The translations under genes and the position numbers were made by a program. Below, one piece after another: positions 32,620 through 42,425 of a DNA stretch of 64,000 nt. Each line of letters opens with the position of its first letter. Positions within the stretch are counted from its first letter, which is position 1. The notes under the pieces were generated by a model. It was not told where the DNA came from. It saw only the letters and a list, made by a program, of their open reading frames with translations, and made no database searches. The DNA is from Rhizobium tumorigenes (GTDB lineage Bacteria > Pseudomonadota > Alphaproteobacteria > Rhizobiales > Rhizobiaceae), in NCBI RefSeq assembly GCF_003240565.2, contig NZ_CP117255.1:558001-622000 (forward strand). The letters run 5' to 3'.

Positions 32620-32896
32620 GGCGATCTCCTTTTCGAGATAAAGCTTTGCCGCCAACAAGGTTCCAGTGGCCGCCTATGGCGCAACCCTGCACCGCTGACC
32701 ACACCACTCGGAAAAGCTTGCCGTCCTCCTCAGCGCGGAATGCAAGGCGAAGCGCGCAGCAAGTCGAGCGCTATCCTTCGTTGCAGACACCACCAAGCGT
32801 CGACGTTGTCGAAGCGTCTTCTCGATGTATCGACACTGTCGATTTCTGATAAAGGCTTTAAAGTTTCAGAATTTCGGGAATTTTTCAACGCTACAA

Positions 32897-32944
32897 ACTG
32901 GTCGGAGTGGAGTGATTCGAACACTCGACCCCCACGTCCCGAAC
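32897..32944. repeat. Left attachment-type repeat (tRNA-Pro 3' fragment)
   Basis: A 48-base perfect copy of the tRNA-Pro(CGG) 3' part found at 36321-36368, same orientation. It contains the anticodon loop, T arm and CCA end but lacks the 5' half, so it cannot make a tRNA. It is the signature of site-specific integration into a tRNA gene and marks the left end of the island. Confidence 0.9.
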
Positions 32945-32964
32945 TTTGCTGACCTGTCCACATA

Positions 32965-32982
32965 TGCGGGTAAAACCCCGCA
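32965..32982 (+). terminator. Possible terminator inside island left end
   Basis: TGCGGG and CCCGCA arms around a six-base loop, followed ten bases later by TTTTT on the plus strand. No rightward gene clearly ends here. Confidence 0.3.
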
Positions 32983-33034
32983 GCTCTGGGCTTTTTGGTG
33001 CGGGTTAAGCCGCTTTGGTCTGGGTTGATCTTGC

Positions 33035-33184
33035 CTATTTCGGGCTGTTTCTCATGGTATCTCCGGGTGCGACTTTCTGGACGTCCTTCATGACATCCTC
33101 GACCTCGCCGACGTAGATCGGCTGGCCCCGGCCTTTCTGAAGGTCACTCCGCGTCGGTGCTTCATGTTCCCTTTTTGTTCTCAT
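33035..33184 (-). CDS. Possible 49-residue small protein in island
   Basis: A short frame beginning MRTKREHEAPTRSDLQKG and ending DTMRNSPK. It is charged and hydrophilic and reads protein-like, but no ribosome site is seen. It lies just inside the left attachment repeat, a usual place for excisionase or integrase genes, yet no such motif is recognised. It could be the tail of a decayed gene. Confidence 0.28.
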   Translation of the reverse strand: MRTKREHEAPTRSDLQKGRGQPIYVGEVEDVMKDVQKVAPGDTMRNSPK

Positions 33185-33231
33185 CGAATAGAAAAGTCAA
33201 GTCTGGCGCGCGCCCTCCCAACCTTCACGCA

Positions 33232-33270
33232 GCACTTTACTAGCGTCGTTCACTAAAGGTAGTAAAGTGC
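33232..33270. promoter_or_regulatory. Inverted repeat before the HEPN-like gene
   Basis: GCACTTTACTA (33232-33242) and TAGTAAAGTGC (33260-33270) are perfect 11-base inverted arms with 17 bases between. A third, imperfect copy TTAGTAAAC follows at 33272-33280. The site lies about 30 bases before the start codon and is a likely operator. Confidence 0.5.
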
Positions 33271-33298
33271 GTTAGTAAACTCGCGCGATTACGGACCC

Positions 33299-34240
33299 AT
33301 GGAAAAGCTGCTCGGCAATGCCATCGACTCAATAGAAGTCGGGATGCAGGATTTCTGGAACGGCTCTGACCGCCGACTGGTGTCGGCCGTGCGGAATGTC
33401 TACGCGGGCCTATTGCTGCTTGCTAAGGCTGTTCTTTGGAATGAGTCGCCGGGCAATGACGGCTCGCTCGTGTTCATCACGAAAGTCAAAAAGGACGGCA
33501 CTATCATCAGGACCGGAAAGACGGTCGATGTGAAGGGGATACAGGATCGCTTCGTCGAGATTGGCTTGTCGCCCGATTGGGGACCTCTCGATGCGTTGCA
33601 GAGCTACCGAAACGATATCGAACACCTGTTCTCGTCGGCCGACCCAAACGTCGTGAAGGAACAGCTCGGCAGGACACTGCCGTTGATACAGAAATTGATG
33701 GGCGAGTACCTGGGCATCGATCCCCGGCGCCAGTTCTCCGATGACTGCTGGCAAGCCCTTTTGGAAACCGAACACTTCTTCAACGAATTGCAAGCGGCCT
33801 GCGCCGCGACCTTCGACAACATCGACTGGGAGTCCACGGAAGTTCCGTTTCCGAAGACAGATATGAGCTGCCCCAACTGTGGATCGCACCTCATTTGGCA
33901 AGAGCACCCGGACCAGCGCAATGCACAGCACATGCATTTGATATGCAGGAACTGTGGCACGGAGCCGGACCTCGAAGACTGCATTGAGCAGGCGCTGGCA
34001 GATAGCACGGCCGCCGCGCGCTATCTCGTGATGACGGATGGCGACCGTGCTCCGATCGAGACTTGTCTTTCGTGCGGCCGTGAGGCGTTCATCGTGGATA
34101 TCGGCAAGTGCATTCTTTGCGACTTCGAGATCGGTGGAGAGTGCGCCATCTGCGGCGAGCACCTCAGTGTCCAAGACTATAGTCCCGAGTATCCAGACTT
34201 CTGCGAGTACCACGCACACGTCATCTCAAAGGACGACTGA
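33299..34240 (+). CDS. HEPN-like protein with C-terminal zinc ribbons
   Basis: A 313-residue protein without a named family known to me. The N-terminal ~130 residues are helical and hold R104-N-D-I-E-H109, which fits the RNxxxH motif of HEPN ribonucleases, preceded by AVRNVYAGLLLLAKAVLW, a typical HEPN helix. The C-terminal half has CxxC pairs at 191/194, 216/219, 256/259, 271/274 and 282/285, enough for two four-cysteine ribbons plus a third site with CEYHAH at the end. HEPN domains often cut RNA in defence or toxin systems. Here the role is inference from the motif and the island setting. An inverted repeat upstream suggests tight regulation. Confidence 0.62.
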   Translation: MEKLLGNAIDSIEVGMQDFWNGSDRRLVSAVRNVYAGLLLLAKAVLWNESPGNDGSLVFITKVKKDGTIIRTGKTVDVKGIQDRFVEIGLSPDWGPLDALQSYRNDIEHLFSSADPNVVKEQLGRTLPLIQKLMGEYLGIDPRRQFSDDCWQALLETEHFFNELQAACAATFDNIDWESTEVPFPKTDMSCPNCGSHLIWQEHPDQRNAQHMHLICRNCGTEPDLEDCIEQALADSTAAARYLVMTDGDRAPIETCLSCGREAFIVDIGKCILCDFEIGGECAICGEHLSVQDYSPEYPDFCEYHAHVISKDD

Positions 34241-34243
34241 CCG

Positions 34244-34888
34244 CTACTTGAACTGGTCGCCGAGGATGCCGATGCATTTCGAATAATTATCGAGCGCCGC
34301 GGTGCTGTGTGTTCGCTTTCCGGCGTCATCGGTGCTTGCTACTGTCAAATCTATCGGTAGCTGTATGTCCGTGTTCCCGCCGTTCTGGTTAAATCCAATT
34401 GTCAACGTCGTGGACGACATCGCCTCCACCAAGATCGTAAAAGACGGCTGGAAGTTGTAGATCGCGAACCACGCGCCCGGAGACGTCGAGGCCGCGTTCA
34501 CGAGGCTTCCCAGGTTGTTCGTGTAGTTCTTGCCGATGAGATAAGCCCGTGAGGGTGCCGACGGGATAAGCTTGGCGTCGGTCGACGTCGGATCGAGGAC
34601 CTCGGCGACGACCTTCACCGTCGCGCCCATTTTTCCGCCGGATGACATGATCGACGCCGACCCCGAGATTTTCAGGAACGCCCCGTCGTTGTAGGTGTAA
34701 TCCTGCGCGATAGCATCGAAAACGAGTTGGCAGCCCTGGAGCTTGCCATTCGATATCGATGGCAAGCTCTGGACGTCCATGGTGCCCAAAAGAGGACCTA
34801 GCGTTTGAACCTGTTCCGGCAAAGGCCGCGCCCCCACGGACGACACCATCGTCAACGCGATCCCCACCGACGCCCACAAGCTCTTCAT
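34244..34888 (-). CDS. Hypothetical exported protein in island
   Basis: A 214-residue secreted protein of unknown family. A signal peptide covers ~20 residues (SLWASVGIALTMVSSVGA). The mature part looks beta-rich (LKISGSASIMSSGGKMGATV, TDIQLPIDLTVAS) and has two cysteines, QGCQLV and SKCIG, that could form a disulfide. It is convergent with the HEPN-like gene, with stops three bases apart. An exported protein is unusual beside a putative intracellular nuclease, so the two may be unrelated cargo. Confidence 0.6.
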   Translation of the reverse strand: MKSLWASVGIALTMVSSVGARPLPEQVQTLGPLLGTMDVQSLPSISNGKLQGCQLVFDAIAQDYTYNDGAFLKISGSASIMSSGGKMGATVKVVAEVLDPTSTDAKLIPSAPSRAYLIGKNYTNNLGSLVNAASTSPGAWFAIYNFQPSFTILVEAMSSTTLTIGFNQNGGNTDIQLPIDLTVASTDDAGKRTHSTAALDNYSKCIGILGDQFK

Positions 34889-34918
34889 GATATTCCCACC
34901 GTTTGGTCGCTAGAGATC

Positions 34919-35170
34919 ATGCCCGAGTTTTCGCGTCAAGCGAGTGATCTGATCGTCTTCGAAATCTGGGCTGACGATCAAGTTCCCGCAGTCCGCCCTC
35001 AGTTCTTCGAGGTTACAAGAGGCAAGCGCAACCAGTCAGGGTCACTCGTAACTTGGCTGTCCGAGTGCAAGCGTCGGCCTGACGGCACCTTGATCGCCCG
35101 CCGTGTCATCCTTGACCGCAAGCGATGGTGCGAACTACAAAGCGGGCAGTGGATACCGATAGAGGTCTAG
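34919..35170 (+). CDS. Small hypothetical protein in island
   Basis: An 83-residue protein beginning MPEFSRQASDLIVFEIWADD. It contains a basic stretch (SECKRRPDGTLIARRVILDR). No known family and no obvious ribosome site. It is divergent from the exported protein gene, 30 bases away. Confidence 0.4.
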   Translation: MPEFSRQASDLIVFEIWADDQVPAVRPQFFEVTRGKRNQSGSLVTWLSECKRRPDGTLIARRVILDRKRWCELQSGQWIPIEV

Positions 35171-35249
35171 CTCTCAGAAGCCCACGAACTTCGACGGCTC
35201 CCGCGCTTCGGCACCGGGAGGTCGTCTAAGTCAACCAAAGCAAGCACGA

Positions 35250-36002
35250 TTATTGCTGTTTAGTATTTGCCTTCTTCGCAGCCTTCTCAAACCAGTCTGG
35301 AACTTCAAAGCTCCCGTCCCAGAAAATGTTTTCGGGAATCTCCTGCCAGAATTGCGTAAACGCTGCATGGAATTCTCCGAGCTGATCGGCCGTGACCGAC
35401 AAGCTGGTATGATCCGCGTATTTAGACCAAATCTCGTCATCGTCCGATTCCCTCAGGTATTCCGGGAAGCCCGACTGGAGAGCATCGAGTGCTTTGCCCT
35501 TACCATGTTTGTAGACGTTGACCACCAGACGGCAAGCTTCGATCTTGTTATGCTGGGGAAGTGCCCGAGCGTCCCACCCCCAGTTGCCAAGTAGGTCGAG
35601 AATCTCGCTCATGAGAGCTGACCATATTTTTGGCTCCAGATACTCCATCTCAAAACTGCGCGCGAGTTCCCTCGACAGCCAGTCTCGCAACTCTTTTTCC
35701 CATTGATGATACAGTCCGGCGGCGACGGACAAATGGACATCTCTCCTCATGTCCGAAAGCATTTCGTACCGTTCTATGCTTTGGTCTTGTGCCATATCGG
35801 CAGCGTCGGCTTGATCGTAGTGTTCCGGGTCAAGGGTCGTCTCGAGCCGACGGTATGTTTCTTCACCGTGCGTTTCCGCTTCACCTTCGATATCGCCGAA
35901 CTGCGCTATCAACCGTTCATTCGCCTGTTCGAAATAGAAATCGAGCTGGGAGATAAGTTGATTTCTCCAAGGGGTCCAGACCTGCAGTAAAGCTTTGGCC
36001 AT
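35250..36002 (-). CDS. Hypothetical helical protein in island (HEPN-like motif possible)
   Basis: A 250-residue soluble, largely helical, acidic protein not assigned to a family. Residues ~25-115 are rich in Glu, Gln and Arg and may form long helices. At R158...N162...K165-H166 the segment CRLVVNVYKHGKG resembles the R/N/KH motif seen in some HEPN-related and Abi-type proteins, but the Arg-His spacing (seven residues) is longer than the classical one. If real, the island would carry two HEPN-like proteins. This is inference of low strength. Confidence 0.5.
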   Translation of the reverse strand: MAKALLQVWTPWRNQLISQLDFYFEQANERLIAQFGDIEGEAETHGEETYRRLETTLDPEHYDQADAADMAQDQSIERYEMLSDMRRDVHLSVAAGLYHQWEKELRDWLSRELARSFEMEYLEPKIWSALMSEILDLLGNWGWDARALPQHNKIEACRLVVNVYKHGKGKALDALQSGFPEYLRESDDDEIWSKYADHTSLSVTADQLGEFHAAFTQFWQEIPENIFWDGSFEVPDWFEKAAKKANTKQQ

Positions 36003-36322
36003 TCCGTGAATCTCCCGCTGTCTAACGCGTGGTCTTTGATATGGCCCGACTCAAACCAGCCTCCGTTCTTGTAGGCGAGCACATGAGCCGCTGACATTCA
36101 GGGGTTGTCAACATTAAGAGACTAGCCGCCGCCGGCTATTTCGCCCGGCGTGGCCGAACGTTACCCTGAGCGCGTTTAGGGCGGCTCCAAGGCCGCCTGG
36201 CTTCATGCTTGGCCGTCTTTTTGTTGCATTTTACAGGCGTTTCTCATGGTGAAAACCATGGTGGGAATCTGAACGGCATATCAGGAGAAACGAAAAAACC
36301 CCGCCGTAGCGGGGGTTCTGAC
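36003..36322. other. Non-coding right end of the island
   Basis: A 320-base stretch without a convincing gene. It holds the tRNA-Pro terminator (36293-36314) and a CATGGT-GAAA-ACCATG inverted repeat near 36245-36260. This is where the island joins the tRNA gene. Confidence 0.5.
36293..36314 (-). terminator. Terminator of tRNA-Pro
   Basis: On the minus strand, CCCCGC-TACG-GCGGGG followed by TTTTTT, nine bases past the tRNA 3' end. It belongs to the island side of the junction, so the element brought its own terminator. Confidence 0.8.
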
Positions 36323-36368
36323 TGGTCGGAGTGGAGTGATTCGAACACTCGACCCCCACGTCCCGAAC
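36321..36368. repeat. Right attachment-type repeat within tRNA-Pro
   Basis: The 48-base copy that overlaps the 3' 46 bases of intact tRNA-Pro plus two bases beyond; identical to 32897-32944. Confidence 0.9.
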
Positions 36369-36399
36369 GTGGTGCGCTACCAGACTGCGCTACACTCCG
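36323..36399 (-). tRNA. tRNA-Pro (anticodon CGG)
   Basis: A 77-base cloverleaf with encoded CCA. Acceptor CGGAGTG pairs with CACTCCG. The anticodon stem CCACG/CGTGG encloses TTCGGGA, giving CGG. The T arm is GAGTG-TTCGAAT-CACTC. It is the integration target of the adjacent island. Confidence 0.96.
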
Positions 36400-39985: not shown

Positions 39986-41470
39986 TCAGATGTCGCTTGC
40001 CGCGTCCGACCAGAGATCGGCTGCTTCTGCGGAGGTCATCCGTCGGACTTTTGCCTCGTCCCGACGGCTGGCGAAGAGGTCGCTTGCCATGATCTGTTCG
40101 GCAAGGTCTGCCGGCAGGGAGAGTAGCACGCGCGTCTGGTCAGGATCGTACGCGCCTAAGTCGGCACGCTTTCCCGAGATCATGCCGCCGGCTACCGTGT
40201 TGTTGGTGTCTGCATCGATCAGGATGAAAGCCCCCGTCGAGCGGCTCTGCTCGTAGGGGTCGAAAATCGCCAGCTGGTCGAAGATCAGTTGCACCTTCCC
40301 GATGGAGTTCATCGGCAGGGCCTTGGCAGGGTTCCATGCGCCGCTGATCAATTCCAGCTGGCTGATCGGAAGCACCTGCACCCGCTGGCGGCGGCTGCCG
40401 CTCTTCAGCCAGTAGCGCTTGCCAGAGTGGACCCCTTCCGGCTGCAGCGCGACGATCTGCGCATCGAAGGAAAGGCCGACCTGCGGCTGGTGGTCGATGG
40501 CAACGATCATGTCTCCGCGCGACACGTCCACCTGCCGGTCGAGAACGAGCGTGATCGCATCTCCCGCTACCGCTGCGTTGCGCACCAGGTCGAAGGTGAC
40601 GATCTTGGCGACGTTTGCGACCATGCCCGATGGCAGGATCAACACGCTGTCGCCAGGCTTCACCGAGCCGCCGGCCACGGTGCCCTGATAGCCGCGAAAG
40701 CTTTCGCCGGGCCGCGACACGCGCTGGACGGACATCCGGAAACCGACAGCCTGCGACGAACGAACAGTTGCCAGTTCCAGCGCCTCGACCAGCGTCGGGC
40801 CGGTGTACCACGGCATGGATGCAGCGCCGGAATAGACGACGTTTTCGCCCTTCAGCGCCGACATCGGGATCGTGGTAATCTGCCTGACGCCGAGCGTCGC
40901 GGCAAATTCCTTGAAATCATGGGCGATCTTGTCGAAGCCGGCGCGATCGTAGTTGGTAAGATCGATCTTGTTGATCGCCAGCACGAACTGCTTGATGCCG
41001 AGCAGCGACGCGATCGTCGCATGACGGCGCGTCTGCTCGAGAATGCCGACGCGGGCATCGATCAGCAGGATGGCAAGATCCGCCGTCGAGGCCCCCGTCG
41101 CCATGTTGCGGGTATACTGTTCATGGCCGGGCGTGTCGGCAACGATAAAGGAGCGGTTGTCGGTGGCAAAGTAGCGATAGGCGACATCGATGGTGATACC
41201 CTGTTCGCGCTCGGCCTGCAATCCGTCCAGCAAGAGCGCAAAATCGGGCAGCCCGAGGTCGTTCTGCTTGCCGGTGGAGTCCCGGCGCAACGTTGCGGCC
41301 TGGTCTTCCTTGATGGCCTTGGTGTCCCAGAGCAGGCGGCCGATCAGCGTGGACTTGCCGTCATCGACGCTGCCGCAGGTGATGAGGCGCAGCGGGCGGG
41401 TATCGCGCACGGCTTTCAAAGGCTCGGCCGGGGCGAGATGGACGACGTTTGCGGCACTGGCGACAGTCAT
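39986..41470 (-). CDS. cysN: Sulfate adenylyltransferase subunit 1
   Basis: A 494-residue GTPase subunit of ATP sulfurylase, which makes adenosine 5'-phosphosulfate (APS) from sulfate. The G1 motif GSVDDGKST is at residues 33-41, DTPGHEQYTRNM is the G3 region and NKIDL is G4. Domains II and III follow as in elongation-factor-like proteins. There is no C-terminal APS kinase (CysC) domain. The ATG at 41470 lies one base past the cysD stop (TGAGATG), so the two are cotranscribed. Confidence 0.95.
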   Translation of the reverse strand: MTVASAANVVHLAPAEPLKAVRDTRPLRLITCGSVDDGKSTLIGRLLWDTKAIKEDQAATLRRDSTGKQNDLGLPDFALLLDGLQAEREQGITIDVAYRYFATDNRSFIVADTPGHEQYTRNMATGASTADLAILLIDARVGILEQTRRHATIASLLGIKQFVLAINKIDLTNYDRAGFDKIAHDFKEFAATLGVRQITTIPMSALKGENVVYSGAASMPWYTGPTLVEALELATVRSSQAVGFRMSVQRVSRPGESFRGYQGTVAGGSVKPGDSVLILPSGMVANVAKIVTFDLVRNAAVAGDAITLVLDRQVDVSRGDMIVAIDHQPQVGLSFDAQIVALQPEGVHSGKRYWLKSGSRRQRVQVLPISQLELISGAWNPAKALPMNSIGKVQLIFDQLAIFDPYEQSRSTGAFILIDADTNNTVAGGMISGKRADLGAYDPDQTRVLLSLPADLAEQIMASDLFASRRDEAKVRRMTSAEAADLWSDAASDI

Positions 41471-41471
41471 C

Positions 41472-42425
41472 TCAGAAATATCCTTCACGCTTCTTCTTTT
41501 CCATGGAGCCGGACTGGTCGCGATCGATCGCGCGTCCCTGCCGTTCGGAAACCGTTGCAATTTCGAGTTCGCCGATCACCTCGTCAAGAGTGGTGGCCTC
41601 CGACCGGATGGCGCCGGTGAGCGGGAAATCGCCAAGCGTGCGGAAGCGGATCATGCCTTCCTGGCGGACTTCGCCGGGCAGAAGCTCCAGCCGCGGATCT
41701 TCTGCGAGGATCATCATCCCGTCGCGCTCCACGTAAGACCGCTTCTTGGCGTAATAAAGCGGTACCAGCGGAATGTCCTCGGCCTGGATATACCGCCAGA
41801 TGTCGACCTCGGTCCAGTTCGACAGCGGAAAGGCGCGCACGCTCTCACCCTGTCGGATCATGCCGTTGTAGATATTCCAGAGCTCGGGCCGCTGGTTGCG
41901 CGGGTCCCAGCGATGTTCGGGAGTGCGGAAGGAATAGATACGCTCCTTGGCGCGGCTTGCCTCCTCGTCGCGGCGCGCACCGCCAAAGGCCGCATCGAAC
42001 TTGCCGGCGTCGAGCGCCTGGCGCAGCCCTTGCGTCTTCATGATGTCGGTAAAGTCGGACGAGCCATGGGTAAAGGGGGTAATGCCCTCGGCAGCACCGC
42101 GCGGATTGATATGCTCGATGAGGTCGAGATCGTAGGTCTTCGCGATATTGTCGCGAAAGGCGATCATCTCGGAAAACTTCCAGCCGGTGTTGACGTGCAG
42201 CAGCGGGAAGGGGACGCGGCCGGGATAGAAGGCCTTTCGCGCCAGATGCAGAAGCACCGACGAATCCTTGCCGACCGAATAGAGCATGACCGGCCGTTCG
42301 AATTCAGCCGCCACTTCCCGGAAAATATGAATGGATTCGTTTTCCAGCGCTTTCAGGTGCGGATCGAGCGGCGGCTTTACGCTCTGCGGATTGTGCAGTT
42401 CCGTATCCGGACGGCTGTCGGCCAT
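41472..42425 (-). CDS. cysD: Sulfate adenylyltransferase subunit 2
   Basis: A 317-residue catalytic subunit of ATP sulfurylase. The PP-loop-type motif [20 protein letters not shown] and [13 protein letters not shown] are typical, and [15 protein letters not shown] follows. It works with CysN. GGAG precedes the ATG. Upstream on the same strand, 103 bases away, is cysH, so cysH-cysD-cysN form one transcription unit. The combination feeds APS straight to CysH. Confidence 0.96.

Follow-up and report, generated by a model that had tools for sequence, protein, structure and literature searches.

Rhizobium phage 16-3 uses the tRNA-Pro(CGG) gene. Sinorhizobium phage phi3LM21 has been reported in the same gene, with 57 repeated nucleotides (passages of PMC5537653). 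In Sinorhizobium meliloti, tRNA hot spots hold phage-related sequences and islands of 3.24 to 88.98 kb, and more than half of the foreign information is located in tRNA genes (passages of PMC11476347). Elements that have repeats on both sides and carry cargo only, without recombinase or transfer genes, are known from other phyla: the classical cis-mobilizable elements (CIMEs) of Streptococcus salivarius measure 1.2–13 kb and occur in tandem with larger elements (passages of PMC7563491), and 15 ssrA islands of Dehalococcoides have no integration module (passages of PMC3146451). Here we describe a 3.4-kb segment next to tRNA-Pro(CGG) in Rhizobium tumorigenes, found within a 64,000-nucleotide stretch that we call the window (assembly GCF_003240565.2, contig NZ_CP117255.1, positions 558,001 to 622,000 of the forward strand; all positions below are counted from its first letter). 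On balance we regard the segment as a small integrated element that keeps both attachment sites and has no integrase of its own, a CIME-like reduced islet with a probable defence cargo.

The islet has its target, tRNA-Pro(CGG), in common with phi3LM21. The prophages of phi3LM21 and 16-3, though, encode an integrase in genomes of 41 and 60 kb, whereas the islet measures 3.4 kb and has none. It resembles the S. meliloti hot spots in being integrated at a tRNA gene, though in another genus, and the passages of PMC11476347 contain no integrase-less HEPN islet at tRNA-Pro(CGG). The repeats on both sides, the cargo-only content and a size within the classical range liken it to the streptococcal CIMEs and, size aside, to the Dehalococcoides ssrA islands. 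The streptococcal CIMEs, however, were found in tandem with related complete elements; for the islet no parent element was identified, and the search of the 64-kb window turned up no integrase. The kind of element is therefore one already known, and the HEPN family is the part worth experiment. As one small locus, the islet suggests a way in which candidate defence genes might stay on at a phage landing site once the mobility genes are lost.

The repeat, the flanks and the empty sites

The segment lies between the two copies of a perfect direct repeat (48 of 48 bp identical, 3,424 bp from start to start; Table 1), much as the initial annotation had described it. The 48-mer occurs only at these two places in the 5.98-Mb genome, even when three mismatches are allowed, so chance is no candidate for its origin. 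ARAGORN places an intact tRNA-Pro(CGG) on the minus strand over the right copy; the right copy therefore belongs to the intact gene, and the left copy holds nothing but its 3′ part. Read in the orientation of the tRNA, the repeat runs from the anticodon loop (GTTCGGGAC...) to the second base beyond the CCA, and the island adjoins the 3′ end of the gene. The only other tRNA that ARAGORN finds in the window is at 14.2 kb, which places the left copy outside any ordinary tRNA cluster. The island has a GC content of 55.5%; pieces of equal length average 60.6%, and only 1 of 243 such overlapping pieces is lower.

We compared the island with 148 genomes of the genus, its own included. Island DNA was matched in 18 of them, but outside the own genome no match exceeded about 95 bp; of the 17 others, 13 match over 32–74 bp on the terminator side of the tRNA, and the remaining four have short matches elsewhere. 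The possibility that relatives all carry the same 3.4 kb without the repeat can thus be set aside, and a foreign origin of the cargo is supported. G110 and G111, the nearest relatives judged by the left flank (6.3 kb at 93% identity), match the window from the right up to position 36321, again at 93%. Both have one copy of the 46-bp core and nothing resembling the island, presenting the uninterrupted site that the initial annotation had proposed to look for. As far as the repeat and these empty relatives go, insertion by site-specific recombination is borne out by the sequence, with support for the tyrosine-recombinase type of integration at the 3′ part of the tRNA, and the 3.4 kb looks like one real insertion of this kind.

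The flanking sequences suggest which copy is the older. After the tRNA, G110 and G111 read GTTTG and then TTCCCGAA at +20. The left copy in the window is likewise followed by GTTTG and TTCCCGAA, one base nearer, and the intact tRNA is followed by a terminator instead. Our collection of flanks behind exact cores comprised 59 distinct ones, 43 from full tRNAs and 16 from partial copies; we dropped repeats of one flank and loci with mismatched cores such as G003, G015, G016, G022, G028 and G032. The motif TCCCGA occurs within 10–40 nt in 25 of the 59 and a terminator, as recognised by our search pattern, in 27, while none has both and seven have neither; of random 35-nt stretches, 1.1% contain TCCCGA. 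Only the flanks of G110 and of the left copy begin with GTTTG. This shared signature, together with the mutual exclusion of terminator and TCCCGA, makes the left copy look like the displaced old end of the tRNA and the terminator like a part brought by the island. Two results weigh against this interpretation: over 100 nt the flanks of G110 and of the left copy align no better than shuffled sequences (76 of 500 as good), and element ends carry TCCCGA too.

The TCCCGA motif after tRNA-Pro(CGG) is complementary to the anticodon loop TTCGGGA. The tRNA is also turned round relative to its neighbours: the gene at 39986–41560 lies 3′ of it in 17 of the 36 relatives read and 5′ of it in the window (region: window 19752–39942). 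This turned order is common to G110 and G111, so the rearrangement predates the island. In G110 (L219 1087–17985), and likewise in G111, a DUF4142 gene and the tRNA are separated by 16.9 kb of ordinary metabolic genes, which the own genome does not have at that place.

Integrases and candidate arm sites at tRNA-Pro(CGG)

Allowing up to three mismatches, the 46-bp core is present in 129 of the 148 genus genomes, and 16, the own genome included, have two copies. Where both are on one contig, they are 3.4 kb apart in the own genome, 3.8 kb in G105, 16–18 kb in G067, G091, G097 and G113, 27–55 kb in others and 228 kb in G135. Of the 15 two-copy relatives, 11 have, beside a core copy, an integrase-like frame that is open for 370 codons or more (G002, G018, G024, G067, G097, G113, G108, G156, G077, G090 and G011). 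G091 has a shorter integrase-like frame, G105 and G135 have fragments, and in G101 the 12 kb covered, out of about 42 kb, showed none. The integrase of G002 is 80% identical to that of phi3LM21, 82% to that of Rhizobium phage vB_RleM_PPF1 and 34.5% to that of phage 16-3. Doubly marked in 16 of 148 genomes, this hot spot is a ready place for finding more such cargo. G105 contains a second small islet (L192 2034–5904), 3.8 kb from an intact tRNA-Pro to a second core, with integrase fragments only.

The islet itself shows no integrase, in agreement with the initial annotation. The tyrosine recombinase profile PF00589 has 25 matches in the own genome and none in the window (C1:558001–622000), where a further integrase profile, for which just 19 sequences were used, has no match either. 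Integrase, replication, packaging and packaging-interference genes, by which a phage satellite might be known, were not recognised in the four larger frames with Pfam, PHROGs, NCBIfam and PADLOC; for a 49-aa frame the scan was limited to Pfam and PHROGs. When the 16 distinct PF00589 proteins of the own genome were compared with the G002 and G024 types as possible helpers, the sole match under E 1e-5 was 36% identity over 90 residues. Four equal-scoring copies of a 303-aa tyrosine recombinase are present on C1, C2 and C3 of the own genome, and C3 has repeated sets of recombinases.

The ends of the island have a 12-mer in common, ACCATGAGAAAC, on the same strand, one copy 114 bp ahead of the left core and the other 70 bp past the right core; a common 12-mer arose in 7 of 2000 shuffled end pairs. 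The pairing suggests candidate arm sites for some integrase. A search of 394 family genomes, sampled from a larger group, returned the core-plus-arm pattern for the own genome alone, and near tRNA cores of the genus there is a single arm-type match, with a mismatch and 278 bp off (G026). Two viral contigs with the pattern were judged chance matches, one lying inside an 898-aa reading frame and the other contig being the same sequence reversed, and the search found no helper integrase for the island end sequences. Direct descent by deletion from the prophages of G002, G018, G024, G026 or G003 was also rejected: island DNA matches these only at the tRNA or core and on the terminator side, apart from one chance 20-mer outside the island.

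The HEPN/zinc-ribbon protein

All the cargo that had been listed for the island was present, that is, a HEPN-like zinc-ribbon protein, an exported protein and two others without assignment, one of which we now place in phage family phrog_19541. The HEPN/zinc-ribbon protein matches the profile of PDC-S64, a PADLOC phage defence candidate, with an E value of 8.3e-43 over residues 2–279 of 313, as do 17 of 17 members of set A1. Its R-x4-H type motif (R104, N105, E108 and H109) is invariant in 17 sequences, and the product has the HEPN helical fold, with the HEPN-MNT pair type among its fold matches. Searching the sequences of solved structures with the HEPN and phrog_19541 proteins gave nothing at E <0.01. 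From motif, fold and family, we suggest that the protein probably cuts RNA on sensing infection and is a probable defence cargo, as a member of a family that is itself a candidate only. At the level of titles and the beginnings of abstracts, we found no paper on the HEPN/zinc-ribbon protein or under the name PDC-S64.

PrrC and RloC are HEPN ribonucleases linked to restriction systems. The islet protein has the HEPN-type motif in common with them, as its relatives have a place behind restriction genes, but its 313 residues include no ATPase part and have zinc ribbons instead. Among the 23 loci viewed, relatives of the gene start 3 bases past the end of the upstream frame in 10, and Pfam confirms type I restriction genes in three of those 10; the islet gene, in contrast, stands without them. 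Should the family be a ribonuclease that also serves alphaproteobacterial type I restriction, its RNxxEH motif would offer a simple two-residue test of a hitherto unstudied defence candidate. Relatives were seen directly behind a large frame in L123–L129, L132, L134 and L184, which in each of three loci examined is a type I restriction subunit, and by eye also among phage-looking genes on viral contigs L183 and L187.

The nature of the element and its other cargo

The islet has attachment sites on both sides and no recombination or transfer genes, as CIMEs do, and its left edge has lost most of a small gene. The remnant is 79% identical over 82 nt to a gene of 124 codons in Sinorhizobium kostiense (L152) and 79% over 48 nt to one of 96 codons in Shinella (L122), and in both of these loci the small gene precedes a HEPN relative encoded on the other strand. 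The HEPN gene is 2.4–2.5 kb from a tRNA-Pro (CGG and TGG, respectively) in these two hosts, with no integrase seen in the stretch covered. A second repeat copy within three mismatches was not found in S. kostiense, except in a probable other tRNA 115 kb away, so these loci, of which that of S. kostiense came into question as a larger version of the island, are not established as flanked islands.

We suggest that a tyrosine integrase, from a longer ancestor or from a phage using tRNA-Pro(CGG), crossed over in the anticodon loop, and that the element supplied a replacement 3′ end with its terminator and displaced the old flank by 3.4 kb, a step to which sequence comparison points through a short signature only. 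Most of the small gene at the left edge has gone since then, and the cargo kept is the probable HEPN/zinc-ribbon RNase, the phrog_19541 protein and the rare exported protein. The element's integrase may have been lost, or that of another element used, and excision or movement would probably occur only with an outside integrase, acting in trans or after tandem joining of an incoming element. Between the satellite and the stable defence island that the initial annotation had offered, the second is plausible in view of the PDC-S64 match and the first gained no positive result; a reduced element of the CIME type is the better fit.

A working mini-satellite that never needed an integrase, being regularly excised and carried by way of phages or elements that use tRNA-Pro(CGG) while its HEPN protein guards the cell, would agree with the perfection of both repeats, with 12-mers that look like intact arm sites, with the use of the site by phage-type integrases in many relatives and with the 3,436-bp length of another contig on which part of the exported protein is listed. 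We consider this improbable, since the full-length island is in 1 of 148 genus genomes, the core-plus-arm pattern is confined, among 394 family genomes, to the own one, the own integrases compared include no close relative of the G002 type, the left-edge gene has decayed and no replication or packaging gene was recognised. Still more speculative is a minimal phage-borne hitchhiker that borrows the integrase of tRNA-Pro(CGG) phages and guards the cell against those same phages by an infection-triggered HEPN RNase; if this were true, one would have to see in the HEPN/zinc-ribbon family a mobile arm for cutting RNA, which operates behind type I restriction enzymes in other bacteria.

The repeat and the cargo might also stem from two unrelated events, the left tRNA piece being an old prophage scar and the cargo a later arrival by another route, so that the 3.4 kb never moved as a unit. 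The hot spot is indeed layered, as in G105 with its pieces of two integrases around two copies, and the flanks differ from those of G110 and G111 by the 16.9-kb segment; yet the cargo occupies the whole interval between the repeats, the left copy is without a mismatch, a 12-mer recurs near both ends and the GC content is low, and we find this history unlikely. A weightier alternative, though still one that we hold to be the lesser possibility, accepts the islet as real and takes its HEPN protein for an element-stabilising toxin or a cellular RNA processor. HEPN proteins are also toxins in HEPN-MNT pairs, and PDC-S64 has a candidate's standing with no paper found under its name; the close placement of relatives behind upstream frames, some of them type I restriction genes, argues the other way, as does the lack of any recognised MNT-type antitoxin among the island genes. 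We therefore retain the CIME-like islet with a probable defence cargo as our reading of the locus, whose features are collected in Table 1.

Table 1. Features of the islet and its borders, in window positions
Feature	Position	Strand	Basis
TTCCCGAA, about 19 nt past the CCA and outside the left copy; native-or-element flank signature of tRNA-Pro(CGG)	32873..32880	-	same signature at +20 in G110
Left copy of the 48-bp repeat, partial 3′ part of tRNA-Pro, attR-like	32897..32944	-	100% identity to 36321–36368
Small gene in decay; its MKHRRG start is out of frame with its GQPIYVGE stretch, and the 3′ part is missing	33035..33184	-	alignment to L152 and L122
ACCATGAGAAAC, candidate integrase arm site, left end	33047..33058	-	12-mer common with right end
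HEPN domain and zinc-ribbon protein, 313 aa, family PDC-S64	33299..34240	+	profile, motif, fold
Probable exported protein, 214 aa, signal-like N-terminus (by eye)	34244..34888	-	no family; 3 relatives besides own copy
Open reading frame of 83 aa, coding status uncertain	34919..35170	+	no family
Protein of phage family phrog_19541, 250 aa	35250..36002	-	PHROGs profile
ACCATGAGAAAC, candidate integrase arm site, right end	36239..36250	-	12-mer common with left end
Terminator-like hairpin adjoining the intact tRNA, inside the island end	36293..36317	-	sequence comparison
Right copy of the 48-bp repeat, within and just past the intact tRNA, attL-like	36321..36368	-	ARAGORN and repeat comparison
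Intact tRNA-Pro (CGG), target gene	36323..36399	-	ARAGORN; 77/77 identical in most aligned relatives

A 178-residue part of the exported protein is listed, at 100% identity, on a contig of 3,436 bp (P0140), a length near the 3,424-bp spacing of the repeats; it may be a circle or mere chance. The phrog_19541 protein may have a HEPN fold of the AbiU2-like kind; its profile match extends over residues 5–247 with an E value of 2.6e-47. In a tblastn search against 50,697 phage records this protein had no match, and it matched 23 loci on viral contigs.
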